Origin: a virus
Direction: 5' to 3' (one strand)
DNA length: 35,832 bases
Virus record (IMG/VR): IMGVR_UViG_3300044986_000294
Span: 1-35,832 of that record
How positions within the stretch are numbered: position 1 is the first letter of the stretch; the number at the start of each line of letters is the position of its first letter. The position numbers and the translations under genes are program-made. Below the pieces are notes generated by a model. It was given only the letters and a program-made list of their open reading frames with translations. It had not been told where the DNA came from and did no database searches. Positions 609 to 35,832 of this stretch are shown piece after piece.

Positions 609-699
609 CGCTACGCGCCACGCCCGCCGTCATCTGACGGCGGGCTGGCCTGCCGCGTCGGCAGGACTCAACAGCGGCACAGCCGCAGAAGGACTCACT
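609..699 (+). ncRNA. three-hairpin structured 5' leader, copy 1
   Basis: This leader holds three consecutive hairpins. H1 is GCCCGCCGTC (622-631) with GACGGCGGGC (636-645), loop atct. H2 is CCTGCC (649-654) with GGCAGG (660-665), loop gcgtc. H3 is GCGGC (674-678) with GCCGC (682-686), loop aca. The Shine-Dalgarno AGAAGGA (687-693) follows H3 without a gap, and the ATG is at 700. The same order, the TGG linker between H1 and H2 and the H3-to-SD junction recur at 1681-1774, 34611-34708, 35042-35145 and 35536-35639. Stem bases change in compensating pairs between copies. There is no U-tract, so it is not a simple terminator. I infer a cis-acting translation or RNA-stability element. Confidence 0.72.
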
Positions 700-1233
700 A
701 TGAAACTCGCCGACACTTTCAACGCGTATGGGTTTGGTCGCGCACGCCGTACGGGTCTCCGACTGGAGGCGCAAGGCAAGCGCAACGCTGGCATCCTCGC
801 GATCAGGGCACGGATGCCGGATGCGGATCTCGTGCAGTGCGCGATGCTCTATGACTTCGAGATCGCGCCGCTGACAACGAACGCCGCGCAGTTGACCGAG
901 ATCGGCGTGTCATGCTGGCACGCGCAGTCACTCGATCTCGTGGAGCACAGCATCAACGGACTGACCGGACGGCAGATGCGCCTGCGCTTGATCGAGATCA
1001 TCGAGGGTCTCGCGGATCTCGGCGTGTTTCTCGTGGAGACCGATCATCTGACTGACCACGAACTGCTCATGGTGCTTGTCACGAAGATCATTCGCGAGAG
1101 CATTCACGATCTGCCGCCGTCGCCTGAAGTCTGCGAGTTCATATCGCTCGCCATGCACAAGGGCGAGCGACGCGAGTCTTGTGTGTCATTTGCCAAGCGC
1201 GACGAGTTCCTGCCGCGACGGAGCCAGCCATGA
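700..1233 (+). CDS. hypothetical protein, 177 aa, behind structured leader 1
   Basis: The start is the ATG at 700, six bases after the Shine-Dalgarno AGAAGGA that follows hairpin 3 of the leader; the 33 upstream in-frame codons would run through the hairpins. The protein is soluble-looking and acidic in its C-terminal half, with alternating Leu/Ile-rich helices (for example LIEIIEGLADLGVFL), and has no signal peptide or membrane segment. I recognise no family. Its stop (1231-1233) overlaps the next gene's ATG (ATGA), so it is probably translationally coupled to the Cys-cluster gene. It is one of five genes in the window carrying the leader family. Confidence 0.65.
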   Translation: MKLADTFNAYGFGRARRTGLRLEAQGKRNAGILAIRARMPDADLVQCAMLYDFEIAPLTTNAAQLTEIGVSCWHAQSLDLVEHSINGLTGRQMRLRLIEIIEGLADLGVFLVETDHLTDHELLMVLVTKIIRESIHDLPPSPEVCEFISLAMHKGERRESCVSFAKRDEFLPRRSQP

Positions 1234-1658
1234 GCCTGCCGCTGACCATACTGCAGGCGAAGCGATCTTGCAACGGCTGCGCCGAGTGCTGCGTGACGAT
1301 GAAGGTCGAGCGCAGCGACGGCACATGGAAGCCGTGCGACAGAGACTGCGAGCATCTCGTGGGCAGCAAGAAGGATCGCAGTTGCGGGCAGTACGACCAG
1401 CGATGGTCGGGCTGCAGGGACTTTGTGTGCGCGTGGGCAGCAGGAATCTTCCCCGAGGAGTGCTGGCCTGCGAAGACGCGCGTCGTGCCATCGTTTGGCA
1501 AGGACGGCAACGCACTGGTTCTGTATGAACACATCGACAGACCGGGCGCATCGCGCACGGGTCGGCTCGGTGAGATTGTCGAGATCATGCGGCGAGAGTT
1601 GAGCCGCAGCGTGGTCATCGTGCGCGGCGAAACGCGCACGCTCCTGCCGCCGTTGTAG
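1230..1658 (+). CDS. YkgJ-like cysteine-cluster protein
   Basis: A 142-residue protein with C14, C17, C20 and C21 (CNGCAECC) near the N terminus, followed by C36, C40, C52, C62 and C67. The CxxCxxCC signature with later spaced cysteines is characteristic of the YkgJ/UPF0153 family of predicted Zn- or Fe-S-chelating proteins, whose biochemical role is not settled. I chose the ATG at 1230 because it overlaps the upstream stop as ATGA. A longer frame from 1179 begins inside the neighbouring gene. It is followed by leader copy 2. A phage copy is unusual; possible roles are metal-dependent modification or scavenging, neither of which the sequence shows. Confidence 0.68.
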   Translation: MSLPLTILQAKRSCNGCAECCVTMKVERSDGTWKPCDRDCEHLVGSKKDRSCGQYDQRWSGCRDFVCAWAAGIFPEECWPAKTRVVPSFGKDGNALVLYEHIDRPGASRTGRLGEIVEIMRRELSRSVVIVRGETRTLLPPL

Positions 1659-1680
1659 TCATGTTGACCCCATGACGCTA

Positions 1681-1774
1681 CGCGCCACGCCAGCCGTCCC
1701 GTGACGGCTGGCTGGCCTGTCGCGTTGACAGGATCACTCTCTCAAACGCGGCACAGCCGCAGAAGGAGGCGACC
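1681..1774 (+). ncRNA. three-hairpin structured 5' leader, copy 2
   Basis: H1 is GCCAGCCGTC (1689-1698) with GACGGCTGGC (1703-1712). H2 is CCTGTC (1716-1721) with GACAGG (1727-1732). H3 is GCGGC (1748-1752) with GCCGC (1756-1760). The Shine-Dalgarno AGAAGGAGG (1761-1769) follows and the ATG is at 1775. Relative to copy 1, a C-G pair in H1 has become A-T and a C-G pair in H2 has become T-A, so pairing is conserved while sequence is not. The preceding 16 bases (GACGCTACGCGCCACG) are shared with copy 1. Confidence 0.72.
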
Positions 1775-2961: not shown

Positions 2962-3170
2962 TGCCGAAACTGTTACCGACGCGACTTGTCGCCGACATCC
3001 TTGAGGTGTCGTTTTCCCGTGTATCGCAACTTGCGAAGGCACGGAATATCACGCCCACAGTTATTGCTGGTCGCAGGCTGTGGACAGAACAGCAAGTGTC
3101 TGATCTGCGACCGAAGAAGAATGGTAGACCACGGAAGGCCAAGCAGGCCGGAAAGGAAAGCGAGCAATGA
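2961..3170 (+). CDS. MerR/excisionase-type HTH DNA-binding protein
   Basis: A 69-residue protein. The first 45 residues follow the pattern of the small winged-helix 'helix_turn_helix_17' excisionase/MerR-like domains: ADILEVSFSRVSQLAKARNI forms the HTH, and GRRLWTEQQVSDL the wing and following helix. The basic tail (PKKNGRPRKAKQ) would contact DNA. The Shine-Dalgarno GGAGGT (2947-2952) fits the ATG at 2961; a GTG at 2958 is an alternative. The stop overlaps the YqaJ gene start (ATGA). It may regulate this early operon; no integrase is nearby, so a recombination directionality role is unlikely. Confidence 0.65.
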   Translation: MPKLLPTRLVADILEVSFSRVSQLAKARNITPTVIAGRRLWTEQQVSDLRPKKNGRPRKAKQAGKESEQ

Positions 3171-4075
3171 TTACTGACAAGCAGCGCGACGAGCGCGCGA
3201 AGGGCATCGGCAGCAGCGAGGTCGCGACCATCCTTCGGATGAATCGGTGGCAGTCGCCGTTTGATCTGTGGGCAGTCAAGACGGGTCGCGCTCCAGCGAT
3301 CGAAACCAATGACGCCATGCGACTTGGGCAGGTGCTGGAGCCGACGCTGCTGCAGTTAGCAGGCGAGCGACTGGGCCTGCGTGTGGTGCGACCGAGCACC
3401 ACATTCGTCGGGCACAAGCCCATCTACCGCGCGAACATCGACGGCATGGTTGGCGAGGCGCGGCGCGGGTCTGACATCGTTGAGGTCAAGACCACAGGCG
3501 TGACAGACGGATGGGGCAAGGAGGGCACGAATGAAGTGCCCGCCTCTGTAATGTGCCAAGTCACCTATCAAATGGCGTGCAGCAGCAGCCATCTCGCTCA
3601 TGTGGCTTGCCTATCGGGATCGTTCGGTCTCGCGTTCAAGTTGTATCGGGTCGAGTGGGACGCGGACTTGGCCGAATACATCCTCGACAATGTGAACGCG
3701 TGGTGGGAGCGACACATTGTGAAGGATGAACCGCCCGAAGACACTGGCAGCCTCGACACGCTCAAGTCGCTTCATCGCACTGACGAGGTGAAGGACATGA
3801 GCGGGCACTTGGAGAAGTTTCAGATCGAGGAAGCAGCGAAGTTGAAACTGGTGGACGCAGAGCGGCAGTACGAGCAGGCGAAGGCGTCGCTCGTGCAGGC
3901 TCTCGGCAACGCGCGACGCGGAGAGACCGGGCCGTACTCGGTCGCCGTGACAGAGGTGAGCACGGATCGTTTTGATCGAAAGGCATTTGAGGCAGAGCAC
4001 GCGGAACTTGCCTCACGCTACATCGTGCCCGCTGGGTACAAGCGCATTGACATCCGCAAGCGAAAGGACGCATAA
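3167..4075 (+). CDS. YqaJ-family exonuclease (lambda-exonuclease fold)
   Basis: A 302-residue protein with the YqaJ viral recombinase layout: GSSE at 15-18, GQVLEP with E58, IDG with D92, and EVKTT at 106-110, which together form the PD-(D/E)XK metal site. A Glu/Lys-rich helical region occupies the C-terminal third. Family members are 5'-3' dsDNA exonucleases that make 3' overhangs for annealing. The gene starts by ATGA overlap with the HTH gene and is followed one base later by the ERF annealing protein, the normal partner. All expected catalytic residues are visible, so it should be active. Confidence 0.85.
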   Translation: MITDKQRDERAKGIGSSEVATILRMNRWQSPFDLWAVKTGRAPAIETNDAMRLGQVLEPTLLQLAGERLGLRVVRPSTTFVGHKPIYRANIDGMVGEARRGSDIVEVKTTGVTDGWGKEGTNEVPASVMCQVTYQMACSSSHLAHVACLSGSFGLAFKLYRVEWDADLAEYILDNVNAWWERHIVKDEPPEDTGSLDTLKSLHRTDEVKDMSGHLEKFQIEEAAKLKLVDAERQYEQAKASLVQALGNARRGETGPYSVAVTEVSTDRFDRKAFEAEHAELASRYIVPAGYKRIDIRKRKDA

Positions 4076-4076
4076 C

Positions 4077-4826
4077 ATGACAAGCAGCAAGGACAAGATC
4101 GCACAGGCGATGATGACTGCAGCCGACTCCGACAAGGCGGCGGCTCGCGCGGAGTTGGGGTGGGAGGCGCGGCTCGTAGCAGCGCAGATGGCGATGAGGA
4201 ATGTCACCAAGGACAGTCGCGTGGCCTTCGGCAATCAACGCTACGCGTACACGAGTGCCGAAGACATGATCGGCGCGTGTCGCGAGGCGTTGCTTGCGGC
4301 AGGGCTTGCACTGTTTAGGTCGTGGACACTGCAGCACACCGAGGCTGGATCGTTCGTCGTGTCTGACTTCACGCTGGCGTATCCGGGCGGCTCGCAGGTC
4401 GTCGGTGCGCTCGTTCCGTTTCCGATCGTGTCAACGAACGGCAAGGGCGAAGACAAGGCGGTCGCGACGGCGTTGACCTCAAGCCTTGGCTACTTCCTCC
4501 GAGACCTGCTACTTGTTCCGAAGGAGGATGACGCGCAGCAAACTGTGCGCGCACCGGAGATGGACGCGCGCGACGATCGCAAGGTAGTTGCGAAGCCACC
4601 GACGAAGGTCGAGCGACTCGGCTTGCAGAGCGCGGTCGATATCACCGCACGATGCAAGCGCGCAGGGACGACGATCGAGGCTCTTGCTGCAGCGATGAGA
4701 AAGGCAGGGCACGATGTCGGCAGTGAGGCGCACCAGTGGCCGGAAGCACTTCGACCGCGCATCATGAAGTGGCTCGATTCGCTTGCTCCGCAGGTCGCAG
4801 TAGAGAAGGAGCCAGCACAAACCTAA
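4077..4826 (+). CDS. ERF-family single-strand annealing protein
   Basis: A 249-residue protein. Residues about 40-165 match the ERF superfamily: YAYTSAEDMIGACREALLA is the conserved aromatic segment and helix, and KAVATALTSSLGYFLRDLLL followed by VPKEDD corresponds to the conserved 'a.TYakRYal..llgi..eDD' block. ERF proteins anneal complementary single strands and work with an exonuclease such as the YqaJ protein directly upstream. The C-terminal segment is a linker and a small helical domain. The ATG at 4077 is one base after the upstream stop. It is followed by a hairpin at 4869-4896. Confidence 0.8.
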   Translation: MTSSKDKIAQAMMTAADSDKAAARAELGWEARLVAAQMAMRNVTKDSRVAFGNQRYAYTSAEDMIGACREALLAAGLALFRSWTLQHTEAGSFVVSDFTLAYPGGSQVVGALVPFPIVSTNGKGEDKAVATALTSSLGYFLRDLLLVPKEDDAQQTVRAPEMDARDDRKVVAKPPTKVERLGLQSAVDITARCKRAGTTIEALAAAMRKAGHDVGSEAHQWPEALRPRIMKWLDSLAPQVAVEKEPAQT

Positions 4827-6128: not shown

Positions 6129-7772
6129 ATGGAACTGCGTGACTATCAGGAACAGGCAGTGAGCGCGGCGATGACAGCGATGCGCGGCGGCGGGTCGACG
6201 CTGCTGGTGATGGCGACAGGTCTCGGCAAGACGATTGTCTTTGCGGAGATCGTGCGGCGGTACATGACGCAGGGCACAGGTCGGCGCGCGCTTGTGCTGG
6301 CGCATCGGCAGGAGTTGATTCATCAGGCGGCAGACAAGATTCGCCGCGTGGTCGCCTGCGATGTCGAGATCGAGATGGGAGACATGAGAGCGCGCGAAGA
6401 CTTCTACAACCGCTCGCCAGTCATCGTGTCGAGCGTGCAGACGCAGGTCGCGGGACGCGGCATCACGCAGCGGATGCACAAGTTCAAGCCCGAGCAGTTC
6501 GGCATCGTCATCATTGACGAGGCGCACCACGCCGTCGGCGCGTCCTATCGCAAAGTGCTGGATCACTTCGCGCGCGGCGGTTGTCGCGTGCTTGGAGTCA
6601 CAGCGACGCCGGATCGCGCAGACGAGGCAGCACTCGGAAGCATCTTCGATTCGGTCGCGTATGAGTTCGGCATTCGCGAGGGCATCATGGGCGGCTGGCT
6701 TGTGCCGATCATGCAGCGACTGGTCAGTGTGACATCGCTGGACTTCAGCGCGTGCAGAACAACCGCAGGCGATCTGAACGGCGCAGATCTCGATGGTGTG
6801 ATGCAGTACGAGGAAACGCTGCACGGCATGGTCTATCCAACGCTGGAGATCGCCGGCGATCGACGCGGCATCATCTTTGCGGCGAGCGTCGCGCACGCCG
6901 AGCGCATCTGCGAGATCGTCAATCGACACAAGGCTGGCAGTGCGGTCTTTGTCTACGCGAGCACGCCTGCAGACGAGCGTCGGCAACTGTTCGCGGGCTT
7001 TGCAGAGGGGCGCTATCAGTGGCTGGTGAATGTCGGCATCGCGACCGAGGGTTGGGATGACGCGGCGCTGGACGGTCGAGGCGTTCAGGTAATTGCGATG
7101 ATGCGACCGACCAAGAGTCGCTCGCTCTACTGTCAGATGATCGGTCGTGGCACGCGGCCCCTGCCGCGCACGGTTGATGGCATCGCGACAGCAGACGATC
7201 GGAGATCGGCAATCGCTTCGAGTGCAAAGGCGAGTCTCACCGTGCTTGACTTCTGCGGCAACGCAGGTCGGCACCGTCTTGTTCATGTTGCCGATGCGTT
7301 GGCTGGCAAGGATCCCGACGAGATCGCTGGCGACATTGCTCGGCGGCAGATGAATGAGCAGGCGCACGGGCAAGATGTCGATGCGCTTGCGTTGCTTACG
7401 CGCGCAGAGGTGCAGGCTGTCAAGGAGCGCGAAGCGCAAACGCGACAAGGTCTTGTGGTCAAGGCTGGCTATCGGTCGCAGGAGATCAACCCATTCGCGT
7501 TGATTGATCTCGCTCCGAATCGCGAGATGCAGACGAACGGCATTCCTGCAAGCGACAAGCAACTGGCAGTCCTGCGGCGACTGCGCGTTGGAATCCCGGC
7601 AAACCTGACGAGGCGCGAAGCAAGTCAACTCATCGACGCTGCGATCGCAACGCCATCGCCTGCACAGGCGTACACGCTGCAAAAGCACGGGCTTGATCCC
7701 GCAGAGTTCACGCGACGCACTGCAAGCGAAGCGATCGACGCCATCAAGGCAGGAAGGCAGGTGCAGCGATGA
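6129..7772 (+). CDS. superfamily 2 DEAH-box helicase
   Basis: A 547-residue protein with the SF2 motifs in order: Q-like motif RDYQ (4-7), Walker A MATGLGKT (28-35), motif Ia LAHRQEL (58-64), DEAH (130-133), motif III TATP (158-161), and C-terminal RecA-like motifs including GWDD and the IGRGTRP arginine-finger motif. Residues beyond about 400 form a less conserved extension with a final basic helical stretch. It most resembles the phage type-III-restriction/UvsW-like helicases that act in replication or recombination branch migration. The ATG at 6129 follows AAGGAG. The stop overlaps the csrA-like start (ATGA). Confidence 0.85.
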   Translation: MELRDYQEQAVSAAMTAMRGGGSTLLVMATGLGKTIVFAEIVRRYMTQGTGRRALVLAHRQELIHQAADKIRRVVACDVEIEMGDMRAREDFYNRSPVIVSSVQTQVAGRGITQRMHKFKPEQFGIVIIDEAHHAVGASYRKVLDHFARGGCRVLGVTATPDRADEAALGSIFDSVAYEFGIREGIMGGWLVPIMQRLVSVTSLDFSACRTTAGDLNGADLDGVMQYEETLHGMVYPTLEIAGDRRGIIFAASVAHAERICEIVNRHKAGSAVFVYASTPADERRQLFAGFAEGRYQWLVNVGIATEGWDDAALDGRGVQVIAMMRPTKSRSLYCQMIGRGTRPLPRTVDGIATADDRRSAIASSAKASLTVLDFCGNAGRHRLVHVADALAGKDPDEIAGDIARRQMNEQAHGQDVDALALLTRAEVQAVKEREAQTRQGLVVKAGYRSQEINPFALIDLAPNREMQTNGIPASDKQLAVLRRLRVGIPANLTRREASQLIDAAIATPSPAQAYTLQKHGLDPAEFTRRTASEAIDAIKAGRQVQR

Positions 7773-7963
7773 ATGGGCTAGTTCTGACACGCCGCATCGG
7801 CGAACGGATTCTGTTTCGTGATGGCAGCGGGCACATCGGAACGCTGACCATTGTCGCCGCAGAGTTGAATCGAGTCTCGATCCAGTTGGAGTTTGGCAAG
7901 CACATCAGAATTGAACGCGCCGAAGTGGCGCAGAAGGGACGACAACTTGACAAGCGAGCATGA
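7769..7963 (+). CDS. csrA-like: CsrA-family RNA-binding regulator
   Basis: A 64-residue protein with the CsrA signature. LVLTRRIGERI at 4-14 equals the conserved beta-1 'LiLtRrvGE'. TLTIVAAELNRVSIQLEF corresponds to strands 3-4 ('vtVlgvkgnqVriGv'). HIRIERAEV equals the 'v.vhReEi' strand carrying the RNA-contacting arginine. A loop insertion (FRDGSGHIG) slightly lengthens the middle. CsrA dimers bind GGA motifs, often in hairpins or over Shine-Dalgarno sites, and repress translation. It is coupled by ATGA to the helicase and overlaps the next gene. Targets could be host mRNAs, the phage's own structured leaders, or both; this is inference. Confidence 0.8.
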   Translation: MNGLVLTRRIGERILFRDGSGHIGTLTIVAAELNRVSIQLEFGKHIRIERAEVAQKGRQLDKRA

Positions 7964-8156: not shown

Positions 8157-9001
8157 GGTCGTTTCAACTGATCGACAAGCGAACCGGAGAGGTTGTCTTC
8201 GACGGCATCGAAGCGTCACGCAGGCAGCCGTGCTGGGTGTGTGAGCGCGAGCACGATACGCCGTCGTGGTGCTTGGTTGATGTCGAGCGACGCGTGTGCA
8301 TCTGCCCGAGAGTCGAGAGTGGCAAGCGCATCGGTGACGCAGGGTGGTGGCATGGCCCGGAGTCAAGCCCGGGCCGCGTGATCGAGTGGAAGCCGAGCGA
8401 CACGCCAGCCGTCGACTTCACGCAGACATGGGACAGATGTCGCGAGAAGGTCACGACGGTCGACTATGTGCAACTCGCCGAGACTTTGGGGATGCGACCG
8501 ATCGACTTCCCTGTGTGGGTCGATCTCGGTGCCTACGGCAACTCGTGGGCGTTCGCGATGCACGATCCGCACGGCAAGGTGTGCGGCATCAAGTTGCGAC
8601 ATCGCGACGGCAGCAAGTCATGCGTGCGAGGGTCGAGGCTTGGGCTCATCAAGCCGCGCACTTTCGACGCAAGCAAACCGGAGGTGCTCGTGACGGAGGG
8701 CGAGTCGGATGCGCTTGTCGCTGCGTCTTGGGGATTCAACGCAGTGGCAAGACCGGGCGCGAAGTCATGCACCACGCATCTTGAAACACTGACGCGAGGC
8801 AAGGCGGTGACTCTCGTGGCAGATCGAGATCCGGCGGGCATGGACGGAGCAAGATTGCTGGCTGCGGATCTGCGAAAGCGATGCAAGGCGTGCAATATCG
8901 TGACGCCACCACCCGGCTACAAAGACTTGCGAGACTGGCACGGGGCGGGTGGAACCGCCGAGGATCTGGCGTGGTTGCTACGCGCTGCACGAGGATGGTG
9001 A
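8153..9001 (+). CDS. DNA primase with zinc and TOPRIM domains
   Basis: A 282-residue protein. The N-terminal zinc-ribbon-like segment has C27, C30, C40, C49 and C51. The TOPRIM domain carries the two acidic motifs VTEGESDALVA (180-190) and ADRDPAGMDG (223-232), with the Glu and DxD residues that coordinate Mg2+. The C terminus is Trp-rich. Its size and order resemble phage primases that lack a helicase domain, so the helicase at 6129 could serve as partner or the host's could be recruited. The ATG at 8153 overlaps the preceding stop. The gene ends just before a strong terminator, closing the early operon. Confidence 0.78.
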   Translation: MRSFQLIDKRTGEVVFDGIEASRRQPCWVCEREHDTPSWCLVDVERRVCICPRVESGKRIGDAGWWHGPESSPGRVIEWKPSDTPAVDFTQTWDRCREKVTTVDYVQLAETLGMRPIDFPVWVDLGAYGNSWAFAMHDPHGKVCGIKLRHRDGSKSCVRGSRLGLIKPRTFDASKPEVLVTEGESDALVAASWGFNAVARPGAKSCTTHLETLTRGKAVTLVADRDPAGMDGARLLAADLRKRCKACNIVTPPPGYKDLRDWHGAGGTAEDLAWLLRAARGW

Positions 9002-9676: not shown

Positions 9677-10326
9677 TGCCTTGGAAGCCTCCAAGCGTGA
9701 ACGCACGAAACAACCGACGATGGAGAAGGTTGAGTCAGCAGACGCGATCGGGCGAGCCATTGTGTCGGCTGTGTCTGTCTGCAGGCAAGATCGAGCCAGC
9801 GACGGTGGTGGATCACATCACGCCGATCGCCGAGGGCGGCACTCACGAGACCGACAATCTCATGCCGCTCTGCAAGCGATGCCACGATGCAATCAAGACG
9901 CCTGCAGACAACGCGCGCATGATTCGCGCCATCCCAGTTGAGATCCGTCTGCTGTTCCCGTGTCTGCGCAGTGCATTGCCTGCCACGATCAATCTGGTCG
10001 AGTTGCGATTCAGTCTCGCGCAGCGACTTGCGATTGCCACGGCGCATCAACTCGCCACAGCGGCTGCAGAAGGCGTCGCGAAAGCCTGTCGGGACGGTGC
10101 GATACAAAGCCGGGCCGTCGTGATTGTGCTGGACGATAGTCACCTTGCGGCGCGTCTTGTCTCCTGCTACGGTGCTTCGGTCGAGGAGATCGCGCACCAT
10201 GCCGACGAAAAAGAGCAAGACGGGCCACACGCCGACTGGATTGAAGCGTTCAAGTCAACCGAGCGAGCAAGGCGAGCAGTCGAGCGGCGAGGAACTCAGG
10301 TCGATAGAGCGGGTTTCGTTAGTTGA
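9676..10326 (+). CDS. HNH endonuclease with uncertain C-terminal half
   Basis: The first 80 residues are a typical phage HNH nuclease: C and C of LCRLC, VDHITPIAEGG with the catalytic DH, the Asn of ETDNLMPLCKRCHD, and the closing CKRC pair. Such HNH proteins often assist terminase or nick DNA. The ATG at 9676 overlaps the RusA stop. The frame stays open to 10326, giving 216 residues, but the part after about residue 85 has no known domain and overlaps the ParB-like gene at 10199 by 128 bases, far more than other overlaps here. The true product may be shorter through a sequencing or biological frameshift, or the next gene may start later. Confidence 0.68.
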   Translation: MPWKPPSVNARNNRRWRRLSQQTRSGEPLCRLCLSAGKIEPATVVDHITPIAEGGTHETDNLMPLCKRCHDAIKTPADNARMIRAIPVEIRLLFPCLRSALPATINLVELRFSLAQRLAIATAHQLATAAAEGVAKACRDGAIQSRAVVIVLDDSHLAARLVSCYGASVEEIAHHADEKEQDGPHADWIEAFKSTERARRAVERRGTQVDRAGFVS

Positions 10327-10780
10327 CTTGCGTCTTGACGATCGCAATGCCCGCGTTCACACGCCACGGAATCTTGAGGCGCTGGTGGCAAGTCTTCGGA
10401 GGTTTGGTCAGCAACGACTTCCGTTGGTCGATTGCGACGGAGTTGTGATTGCTGGTAACGGACTTGTCATGGCGGCTCGGCAACTCGGCTGGCTACATAT
10501 TGACATTTTGCGCACTGGCTTGCGTGGCGACGAAGCGCGTGCGTATGCAATCGCCGACAACAGAACAGCCGAACTTGCGGAATGGGATCGGCCGCAGCTA
10601 ATCGACACGCTGCGCTCAATCGATGACCCTGACTTGATCGCTGCATCTGGATTTTCGGAACAGGAGTTCCGCGCCTTTCTTGCGAACATGGATCCGCCGA
10701 CAGAGTTCAAGGATGTAAGTGAACCTGCCGCGCTCGACACAAAATGCCCCCGCTGCGGCTTTGACTTTGAGTCGTCATGA
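10199..10780 (+). CDS. ParB-like protein of the DNA-modification cassette
   Basis: A 193-residue protein. A basic low-complexity N terminus (1-33) precedes a ParB/sulfiredoxin-like domain: IERVSLVDLRLDDRNARVH, ALVASLRRFGQQRLPLVD, the phosphate/nucleotide loop VIAGNG (83-88), and YAIADNRTAELAEWD. This is the subfamily of phage ParB-like proteins commonly beside DNA methyltransferases and PP-loop ATPases. The C terminus has CPRC, half of a zinc knuckle. Its stop overlaps the PP-loop gene (ATGA), starting a four-gene overlapping unit. By analogy with IbrB/IbrA and Dnd pairs, it may guide or license a PP-loop enzyme on DNA; this is inference. Confidence 0.78.
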   Translation: MPTKKSKTGHTPTGLKRSSQPSEQGEQSSGEELRSIERVSLVDLRLDDRNARVHTPRNLEALVASLRRFGQQRLPLVDCDGVVIAGNGLVMAARQLGWLHIDILRTGLRGDEARAYAIADNRTAELAEWDRPQLIDTLRSIDDPDLIAASGFSEQEFRAFLANMDPPTEFKDVSEPAALDTKCPRCGFDFESS

Positions 10781-11571
10781 AGCCTGACATCAGGCGCGTC
10801 CTACTCGAGTGGGCGTATGCCATCAATCATCATGAATGTGCGGTGTTGCTTTCGGGCGGCGTCGATTCTGCTGCCGTGTGCTTTGCACTTCAGGAGGTCG
10901 GTAAGACCGTCGTTGCATACACATTCACTCTCGATGATCGCGAGAGTTCTGACTTTCTCGCCGCAAAGCAAGTTGCGAGAGTACTTCGATGCGACTGGGT
11001 TCCAGTGCGCCTTCCGACTTCAATCAAGGCATTGCAAGAGGACATGATCCGACTCAGAGATCTCGGTGCAAAGTCAAAGACGGATTTTGAATGCTCGTGG
11101 CCAATGATCTACGCATATCACGCAGCAGCACAGACAGTAGTTTGTTCTGGCATGGGTGCGGACGGACACTTCTGCATTTCAAAGAAAGGCATGATTCACT
11201 ACCGCGATCGCATCGACGAGTTTCGGATGAAACTCTACGGCTCTCGGACATATGCGCAGCAGCACTTGCACCGTGCGCTTGCTAATGAACATCAAAAGGT
11301 TGCTGAACTGCCGTTCCTGCTTGAAAAAATGAAAGCCGAGTTCATCGGCACGACTTGGGATCAACTGAACAAGCCAAAGCAAAAGCAGGCGCTACTCGAC
11401 GCCTTCCAGACTGAGTTCAAGAACATCAAAGTGCGTCCTCATACAAACTTGCAACTCGGAGACAGTGGCATCTCTGCGCACATCGCGAAACTGCTTCGAT
11501 CGGAGTGGAACTACCGTAGTCATCGTTCTGTAGTTGGCATTTTCAATCAACTGGTGGCGCGTGCATTATGA
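10777..11571 (+). CDS. asparagine-synthetase-like PP-loop ATPase
   Basis: A 264-residue protein with the PP-loop SGGVDS at 26-31 and, at 124-130, SGMGADG, which resembles the 'GeGaDE' segment of the asparagine synthetase C-terminal domain. It has no N-terminal glutaminase domain, no Cys2 and no PAPS-reductase signature. Family members adenylate a carboxylate (AsnB, beta-lactam synthetase) or a base before amine or sulfur transfer. It overlaps the ParB-like gene before it and the methyltransferase after it by ATGA, so it is part of the modification operon. The gene is notably AT-richer than its neighbours (row 11281-11340 is 26/60 G+C). I infer action on a modified-base carboxylate; alternatives are amino-acid or nucleotide amidation. 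Confidence 0.72.
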   Translation: MKPDIRRVLLEWAYAINHHECAVLLSGGVDSAAVCFALQEVGKTVVAYTFTLDDRESSDFLAAKQVARVLRCDWVPVRLPTSIKALQEDMIRLRDLGAKSKTDFECSWPMIYAYHAAAQTVVCSGMGADGHFCISKKGMIHYRDRIDEFRMKLYGSRTYAQQHLHRALANEHQKVAELPFLLEKMKAEFIGTTWDQLNKPKQKQALLDAFQTEFKNIKVRPHTNLQLGDSGISAHIAKLLRSEWNYRSHRSVVGIFNQLVARAL

Positions 11572-12611
11572 AACCGACATACGCGATTCCGACTATGGAT
11601 GAGATTCGACGGATTCCGTGGAACGGCTTGAAGGTTGTGAGTACCTTCAGTGGATGCGGCGGCTCATCGACGGGATACAAGATGGCTGGATGTCGCGTAC
11701 TTGGAGCGAGCGAGTTCATTCCGGTTGCGGCAGAAACCTATCGGGCAAATCATCCTGATACCTACCTCGACACGAACGACATACGCACCTTGCAGGCTGA
11801 CAAGTTCATGGACGCAATGAACCTGCAGCCCGGAACTCTTGACATTCTTGACGGATCGCCGCCGTGCTCGTCCTACAGCACCGCTGGTAAGACAAGCGAA
11901 GGATGGGGCAAGGCGAAGTTATACAGCGGATCTGTCAAGCAACGAACTGATGATCTGTTTGATGAGTTCCTACGATTGCTCGCTGCGATTCAACCGCGCG
12001 CATTTGTAGTCGAGAATGTCGCTGGGCTCGTGCGCGGCGTAAGTCGCGGCGTCTTTTCGGAGGTCATCTCGGCAATGCGCGCAGCAGGCTACCGAGTCGC
12101 ATGTCGGGTGCTCGATGCGCAATGGCTTGGCGTGCCACAACGGAGAGCGCGCACTATCTTCATTGGTCTGCGAACGGATCTCGGGGTTGCGCCACAGCAT
12201 CCAAAGCCGTTCCCACATCGTTACACGCTCGCGGAAGCACTGGACTGCGAAGCTGGCGATACATCCGACGCATCGATTGATCGGTTTGCGATTGGGAGAG
12301 AGTGGGAGCGGCTCGGTCGGCCCGGGACACAAAGTGACAAATACTTCTCTCTTGTCCGCCCGCGACTTGATGAGCCATGCCCGACCTTCACGGCTGTGAG
12401 GCACGGTGCTGCGAAGGTTGTGCACCCGACAGAAAAACGAGGCTTCACGATCAACGAGCTGAAACGCATCGCTGGCTTTCCAGCCGACTATGTCTTCACT
12501 GGTACATACGATGAGCAACAGGAGCGAATCGGCAGAGCAGTACCGCCTCTCATGATGAAGGCAATCGCTCTCTCCGTCGCTGCACAACTGAAGGAGAGCA
12601 ATCATGTCTGA
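11568..12611 (+). CDS. C5-cytosine DNA methyltransferase with altered cofactor-site residues
   Basis: A 347-residue protein with the ordered C5-MTase motifs: I (FSGCGGSSTG, 27-36), IV (GSPPCSSYS, catalytic C100), VI (ENV, 149-151), VIII (QRRAR, 191-195), a small target-recognition region (about 205-285), IX (RGFTINELKRIAGFP) and X (IGRAVPPLMMKAIA, 321-334). The catalytic residues are intact, so it should attack cytosine C5. Two cofactor-side positions differ: the motif IV Gln after the Cys is Ser101, and the motif X Asn (GNAVPP) is Arg323. It overlaps the PP-loop gene and, by eight bases, the CmoA-like gene. The prediction that it uses Cx-SAM is developed in the findings. Confidence 0.9.
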   Translation: MKPTYAIPTMDEIRRIPWNGLKVVSTFSGCGGSSTGYKMAGCRVLGASEFIPVAAETYRANHPDTYLDTNDIRTLQADKFMDAMNLQPGTLDILDGSPPCSSYSTAGKTSEGWGKAKLYSGSVKQRTDDLFDEFLRLLAAIQPRAFVVENVAGLVRGVSRGVFSEVISAMRAAGYRVACRVLDAQWLGVPQRRARTIFIGLRTDLGVAPQHPKPFPHRYTLAEALDCEAGDTSDASIDRFAIGREWERLGRPGTQSDKYFSLVRPRLDEPCPTFTAVRHGAAKVVHPTEKRGFTINELKRIAGFPADYVFTGTYDEQQERIGRAVPPLMMKAIALSVAAQLKESNHV

Positions 12612-35639: not shown

Positions 35640-35832
35640 ATGGCTCGAACCAAGAAGGCTGCAGCACAGATCGTTCCGACAGCAGCAACCGAGGACACGC
35701 GGTCGATCATCGAGAAGGAGCGCACAGGATTGTTCTGGCGACGCGTTGCGGGACTTGTGATGGGGTACTGGGACAACTACGGCAGCACGGACATGGAGAT
35801 GTCCAAGAATGAGGCGATCGCGTTTCTCGAGT
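35640..35832 (+). CDS. hypothetical protein, truncated by the window edge
   Basis: The first 64 codons of a protein start at ATG 35640 behind leader 5. The N terminus is Lys/Ala-rich (ARTKKAAAQIV), followed by a Trp/Tyr/Gly-containing segment (TGLFWRRVAGLVMGYWDNYG) and a helix entering the edge. No family recognised; the 3' end is missing. Confidence 0.6.
   Translation, partial: MARTKKAAAQIVPTAATEDTRSIIEKERTGLFWRRVAGLVMGYWDNYGSTDMEMSKNEAIAFLE

Follow-up and report, generated by a model that had tools for sequence, protein, structure and literature searches.

Ribonuclease (RNase) III sites lie between the early genes of bacteriophage T7. Short repeated elements have been described at phage genes as well: the PeSL elements of T4-like phages are mobile regulatory promoter-terminator composites (Arbiol 2010, Comeau 2014, via PMC4503421 and PMC3950731), and a PeSL-similar motif is reported to precede genes of HGTV-1. 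The SAS elements of cluster K mycobacteriophages are multi-copy and adjoin start codons, ESAS adding 17-bp inverted repeats upstream of SAS; pairing as RNA received little support in the authors' analysis (PMC3203893). In cluster O mycobacteriophages, 17-bp repeats are often intergenic dyads, and recombination between them has apparently deleted segments (PMC4351075). Here a repeated leader of three hairpins is described from the early region of an uncultured tailed phage, the linear IMG/VR contig IMGVR_UViG_3300044986_000294, whose proteins include terminase, portal, head protease and connector; its whole 35,832 nucleotides (nt) were analysed and are called the window below. The leaders form a strongly covarying family that extends to related contigs, and they coincide with the edges of an exchanged block of early genes.

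Five leaders of one plan

The window contains five leaders, all on the plus strand of its early region (Table 1, C1 to C5). They follow a single order: CCA, a bulged C, the 10-bp hairpin H1, TGG, hairpin H2 directly, a G-poor spacer, hairpin H3, a Shine-Dalgarno (SD) sequence directly 3' of H3 and the start codon. In C1 and C2 the SD region reads AGAAGGA and is followed by ATG. A preliminary description had reported this order (H1, TGG, H2, spacer, H3, SD) for the two left-end leaders and had mentioned three right-end copies. Its account of C1 and C2 was borne out, the right-end copies are real (CCA at 34613, 35060 and 35554), and so are the compensatory changes it noticed, from C-G to A-T in H1 and from C-G to T-A in H2. 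It had called the five downstream genes otherwise unrelated, and indeed no two of them cluster together.

Several features had been missed. H1 has an additional base stem, CCA/TGG, set off by the invariant bulged C. The loops of the two hairpins behave differently, 54 copies showing 35 H1 loops and thus hypervariability, versus only 14 kinds of H2 apical part, mostly ACCGT, ATCGT and CGCGT. The spacer between H2 and H3, which is 8-30 nt long in the family, is nearly free of G: it consists of 37% A, 37% C, 22% T and 4.6% G, where G makes up about 32% of the genomes. Finally, the leaders belong to a single array: in L017, a close relative of the window (99%) with replication and many other proteins 98-100% identical, they are contiguous in the same early region (6343, 6790, 7270, 8511 and 9604), so the distribution of the five window leaders over both ends arises because the contig is cut inside one early-region array.

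Each of the five window leaders folds better than all 200 of its dinucleotide shuffles (z from -3.6 to -6.1). The minimum-energy fold consists of the three hairpins in four of the five copies, the exception being C2, whose H2 is disrupted by a competing fold. Nor did any anti-SD partner appear, and riboswitch-type switching was set aside on these two grounds.

The distance from the preceding stop codon to the leader is exactly 7 nt for about half of the family and 9-26 nt for most of the remainder; in the window, measured from the ends of the open reading frames (ORFs), the distances are 7, 24, 16 and 16 nt for C1, C2, C4 and C5. Early genes of the window without a leader overlap the preceding gene (e.g. 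near 321 and at 1230). No promoter-like site was detected in 1-2800 or in 34100-35832.

Table 1. Coordinates of the leaders, the genes behind them and other features discussed (window positions unless L288 is named)
Feature	Positions	Strand	Details
Leader C1	616-699	+	H1 618-648 (bulged C 621), H2 649-665, spacer 666-673, H3 674-686, SD 687-693
Gene behind C1	700-1233	+	ATG 700
Leader C2	1683-1774	+	H1 1685-1715, H2 1716-1732, spacer 1733-1747, H3 1748-1760, SD 1761-1769
DUF932 gene behind C2	1775-2632	+	ATG 1775
YqaJ/RecE-like recombination exonuclease	3167-4075	+	possible agent of exchange between leaders
Erf-like single-strand annealing protein	4077-4826	+	likely partner of the exonuclease
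Non-coding stretch (about 400 bp) 5' of C3	34202-34610	+	identical in L017
Leader C3, first of the array	34611-34708	+	H1 34613-34647 (8-nt loop), H2 34648-34668, H3 34683-34696, SD 34697-34702
Gene behind C3	34709-35041	+	
Leader C4	35058-35145	+	H1 35060-35090, H2 35091-35105, spacer 35106-35120, H3 35121-35133, SD 35134-35139
Gene behind C4	35146-35535	+	GTG start
Leader C5	35552-35639	+	H1 35554-35584, H2 35585-35599, H3 35614-35627, SD 35628-35633
ORF behind C5	from 35640	+	ATG 35640; continues past the contig end
L288 promoter-H3-SD cassettes	6210-6278, 6657-6725, 7868-7936, 8184-8250		near-identical

Further copies and covariation

The absence of further copies and of covariation had been named in the preliminary description as what would overturn the RNA interpretation; further copies and covariation were both found. 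A search with a covariance model (R1, copies counted at E<=1e-6) returned 67 high-scoring leaders in 17 contigs, at 43-94 bits, with five to eight leaders per genome in this phage group. In whole records the high-scoring matches were confined to the early arrays, and the weak matches on the reverse strand mostly overlapped the H1 palindrome read backwards. In unrelated phage DNA (843 kb from 57 distant DUF932 loci) the best hit of the same model scored 16 bits.

In a structure-fitted alignment of the model copies, 98.9% of the cells were paired and 18 of the 23 pairs showed two-sided compensatory changes. Two-sided cells numbered 162 (shuffles 45, slid controls no more than 20), and the covariation score was 0.404 (shuffles 0.122, slid controls no more than 0.055); an earlier MAFFT alignment, made without the structure, agrees. 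Since the copies had partly been collected by their H1 pairing, a selection-free test was also run, in which only the fixed flanks were scanned and the seven inner H1 pairs were left free. All seven were formed in 37 of 37 family copies, while 66 chance matches in other contigs paired at five or fewer of the seven positions. Two-sided compensated changes also occur between leaders of one genome. On the transcribed strand 17 cells are G-U and 5 are A-C, four of the latter lying in first-leader H2s misaligned by the model. The presence of G-U and near absence of A-C mismatches speak for RNA pairing over a symmetry of the DNA. Together with the further copies and the covariation, this pattern supports the cis-acting RNA element that had been proposed.

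At least four further contigs (L286, L327, L329 and L341) carry looser leaders, recognised by inspection and less certain, most of their model hits being weak (best E 0.0003 to 0.04). They comprise a long H1, an H2 with a CGCGT- or ATCGT-like apical loop, a spacer, H3 and SD, and fold as expected. The base stem beside the bulged C varies (GCCA/TGGC, GACA/TGTC, GGCG/CGCC, GGAA/TTCC, CGA/TCG) with the bulged C kept, and H3 occurs as GCGGC/GCCGC, GCCGC/GCGGC, GCCCC/GGGGC, GATGC/GCATC or GCCGG/CCGGC. In distant copies, then, the letters turn over and the structural plan persists. The H1 arms are alike within a clade; as a separate observation, the H1 loop ATGG is common to two leaders of one genome (L264 11865-13055; L270 13685-14875), and the two facts suggest gene conversion among leaders.

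The element had not been recognised as a described RNA family, in agreement with Rfam 15: none of its 4227 families reached the gathering cut-off when the window and six relatives were searched; on the right-end copies no family appeared at E<=5. A comparison of the leader with 50,697 phage records gave only chance matches of about 22 nt. The H1 pattern was also searched in one genome per bacterial or archaeal species, where the five matches, which had neither full pairing nor the surroundings of a leader, were taken as chance.

Two modules and apparent cassette exchange

In L288 (IMGVR 3300042389_000244) H1-H2 is replaced at four places by the promoter TGGACA-16-TATACT, in each case followed by spacer-H3-SD, in an array that also holds two H1-H2-H3 leaders. 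These sigma70-like sites are the only promoter matches in the 13.7-kb locus, and two of the four units start no more than 10 nt from a stop codon. Some other copies carry H1-H2 without H3. The promoter swaps and the copies lacking H3 demonstrate that the leader consists of two separable modules, H1-H2 (module 1) and spacer-H3-SD (module 2).

The comparison of the window with L017 places the edges of gene exchange within leaders. Identity is 100% through 34668, where H2 of C3 ends, and low from 34669 on, the early genes beyond being clearly diverged (roughly 15-37 of 40 bases per step); near-identity resumes near 1700, inside H1 of the DUF932 leader C2. Both edges of the exchanged early-gene block thus fall within leaders. 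L018 has a leader-gene unit that is absent from L021, the ends of the alignment lying at the two leaders.

The two modules also differ in what they follow. The H1-H2 sequence of the first leader is constant whatever gene follows (identity 0.94 between clades, versus 0.68 for first-versus-other pairs). The spacer-H3-SD half resembles leaders of the same gene family, the observed value being reached in 5 of 5000 permutations; for the H1-H2 half, 431 of 5000 permutations reached it. Exchange at a shared H1-H2 patch would make cassettes travel with module 2. The earlier proposal that the element is spread with genes is thereby refined: module 2 tracks the gene, whereas the H1-H2 half behaves as a shared patch where exchange blocks end.

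Proposed function and alternatives

The explanation we favour, with about an even chance of being correct, is that the leader is an intercistronic RNA through which every early gene has a ribosome loading site or 5' end to itself, and which serves in addition as a homology patch for cassette exchange. Module 1, lying a few nucleotides past the upstream stop codon, would separate the next gene from the preceding one. Module 2 would be the ribosome loading site, in which the G-poor single-stranded spacer together with H3 would leave the SD accessible. With both modules each early unit of a polycistronic transcript could initiate alone, independently of upstream ribosomes, and the leader may also supply a stable or processed 5' end for each gene. 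At the DNA level the H1-H2 stretch of about 50 bp would be a shared homology patch for gene exchange or loss, probably through the phage exonuclease/Erf annealing system; YqaJ exonuclease and Erf annealing protein are the kind of pair that recombines short homologies. The structure, its two modules, the leader positions and the mosaic breakpoints are observed; how the leader affects translation or RNA ends, and what part the recombinases of the phage play, is what we infer from them.

Some observations weigh against this explanation. Module 2 is incomplete in some copies, which lack H3. When all blast-block ends were tested strictly, leaders were only weakly enriched in them (9 of 42 versus 4.6 expected, P 0.035, a noisy count on fragmented blocks), which indicates that not every exchange ends in a leader. 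The same anatomy would also suit RNase processing or a protein-binding site.

The strongest rival, itself on the unlikely side, is a site of mRNA processing or stability, at which an RNase (III- or E-type, host or phage) cuts at H1-H2, so that H1 protects the 3' end of the upstream message and H3 (or H2) the 5' end of the downstream one. It agrees with the position of H1 directly past the stop codon, with its bulged stem of about 13-14 bp, which resembles phage RNase III sites such as those of T7, and with the replacement of H1-H2 by a promoter that sets a new 5' end immediately ahead of H3; however, H1 is short for RNase III, and its sequence and loop vary freely. Processing overlaps with the favoured explanation and the two could coexist.

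Rather unlikely is a site at which an RNA-binding protein of the phage, recognising the bulged-C helix and the H2 loop, coordinates translation across the early genes as a whole. In its favour, the bulged C persists despite the changing base stem around it, the H2 apical kinds are few, and GCATCGTGC recurs in L286 on a different stem, but the H2 apex differs in first leaders and no candidate binder was identified.

An RNA antiterminator of the put type, modifying RNA polymerase so that early transcription continues, is improbable. Two adjacent hairpins, the first bulged, in an early operon resemble HK022 put, yet the leaders precede most early units, not one per operon, and are tied to the stop codon and SD. 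Still less probable is a DNA-level element, either a single-strand-hairpin recombination site (attC- or REP-like) or a palindromic operator: although H1 is a DNA palindrome and cassette borders lie within leaders, the G-U bias and the tie of H3 to SD argue otherwise, no integrase or HUH protein occurred among the proteins scanned (a subset of the ORFs), and homologous exchange by the exonuclease and Erf would suffice.

Ordinary terminators or chance hairpins, suggested by GC-rich stems in a GC-rich genome, can practically be dismissed, since covariation already refutes chance, unrelated DNA scores far below the family, and no terminator-like site was found in 1-2800; the preliminary description, too, had held that these are not plain terminators.

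More broadly, and with somewhat less than even confidence, we suggest a new class of phage RNA that makes gene cassettes plug-and-play, in which a shared structured module insulates each acquired early gene from its neighbour, supplies a ribosome site, doubles as a recombination joint and can be replaced by a promoter with the remainder unaltered. The family covaries strongly, is absent from Rfam and occurs in a phage group to which no cultured phage was found to be closely related. It provides a concrete, testable explanation of how phages can extend an early operon by new genes and leave the adjacent ones undisturbed, joins an RNA function with a recombination function in one piece of 80-100 nt, and could serve as the model for a compact insulator between the genes of synthetic operons.

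Neighbouring features

The non-coding stretch before C3 is probably the start of the early operon. It might also be an origin or control region; a promoter scan found no sigma70-like promoter in it. Directly 3' of the DUF932 gene (2650-2682) lies a strong GC hairpin without a U-tract, GGGGCGGCGACTG...CAGTCGCCGCCCC. Elsewhere, consecutive genes at 10124-12611 encode a ParB-like protein, a QueC/asparagine-synthase-like protein and a C5-cytosine methylase, possibly a DNA modification set. In the tail region, 28137-31475 encodes a 1112-aa protein with RCC1-type repeats, only 48% identical to its counterpart in the otherwise very close L017 and possibly a receptor-binding protein under exchange. 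Comparisons of the tape measure, RecE, helicase, DUF932 and exonuclease proteins gave no close relative of the window phage among isolated phages.

Comparison with known systems

The nearest kinds are the PeSL cassettes of T4-like phages and the SAS/ESAS of cluster K. The T7 RNase III sites are likewise intercistronic hairpins of early phage mRNA, but their stems are longer and they lack the H2, spacer, H3 and SD order. The cluster O repeats share with the leaders the recombination between repeated copies; they differ in being a near-invariant DNA motif, about a third of them inside genes, without a tie to translation starts (PMC4351075). SAS and ESAS resemble the leaders in their multi-copy association with starts. 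The SAS/ESAS motif GGGATAGGAGCCC has a single chance-level match in the window (31022-31034), away from the leaders and hence not at their start sites, and, unlike inverted repeats with little support for RNA pairing, the leaders covary strongly.

The PeSL elements are similar in being short repeated stem-loop elements that precede many genes and are linked to gene shuffling. Most leaders here differ by lacking a promoter or U-tract and by consisting of three covarying RNA hairpins between adjacent genes. A stem-loop terminator with a U-tract was not found in 1-2800, and only C3 has a T-rich stretch, located after H1. No early promoter was found at the window leaders (scanned in 1-2800 and 34100-35832); one is present only in the four L288 units. 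Like PeSL, the leaders border exchanged blocks in the comparison of the window with L017, the broader block-end test being weak, and the promoter-H3-SD units of L288 look PeSL-like.
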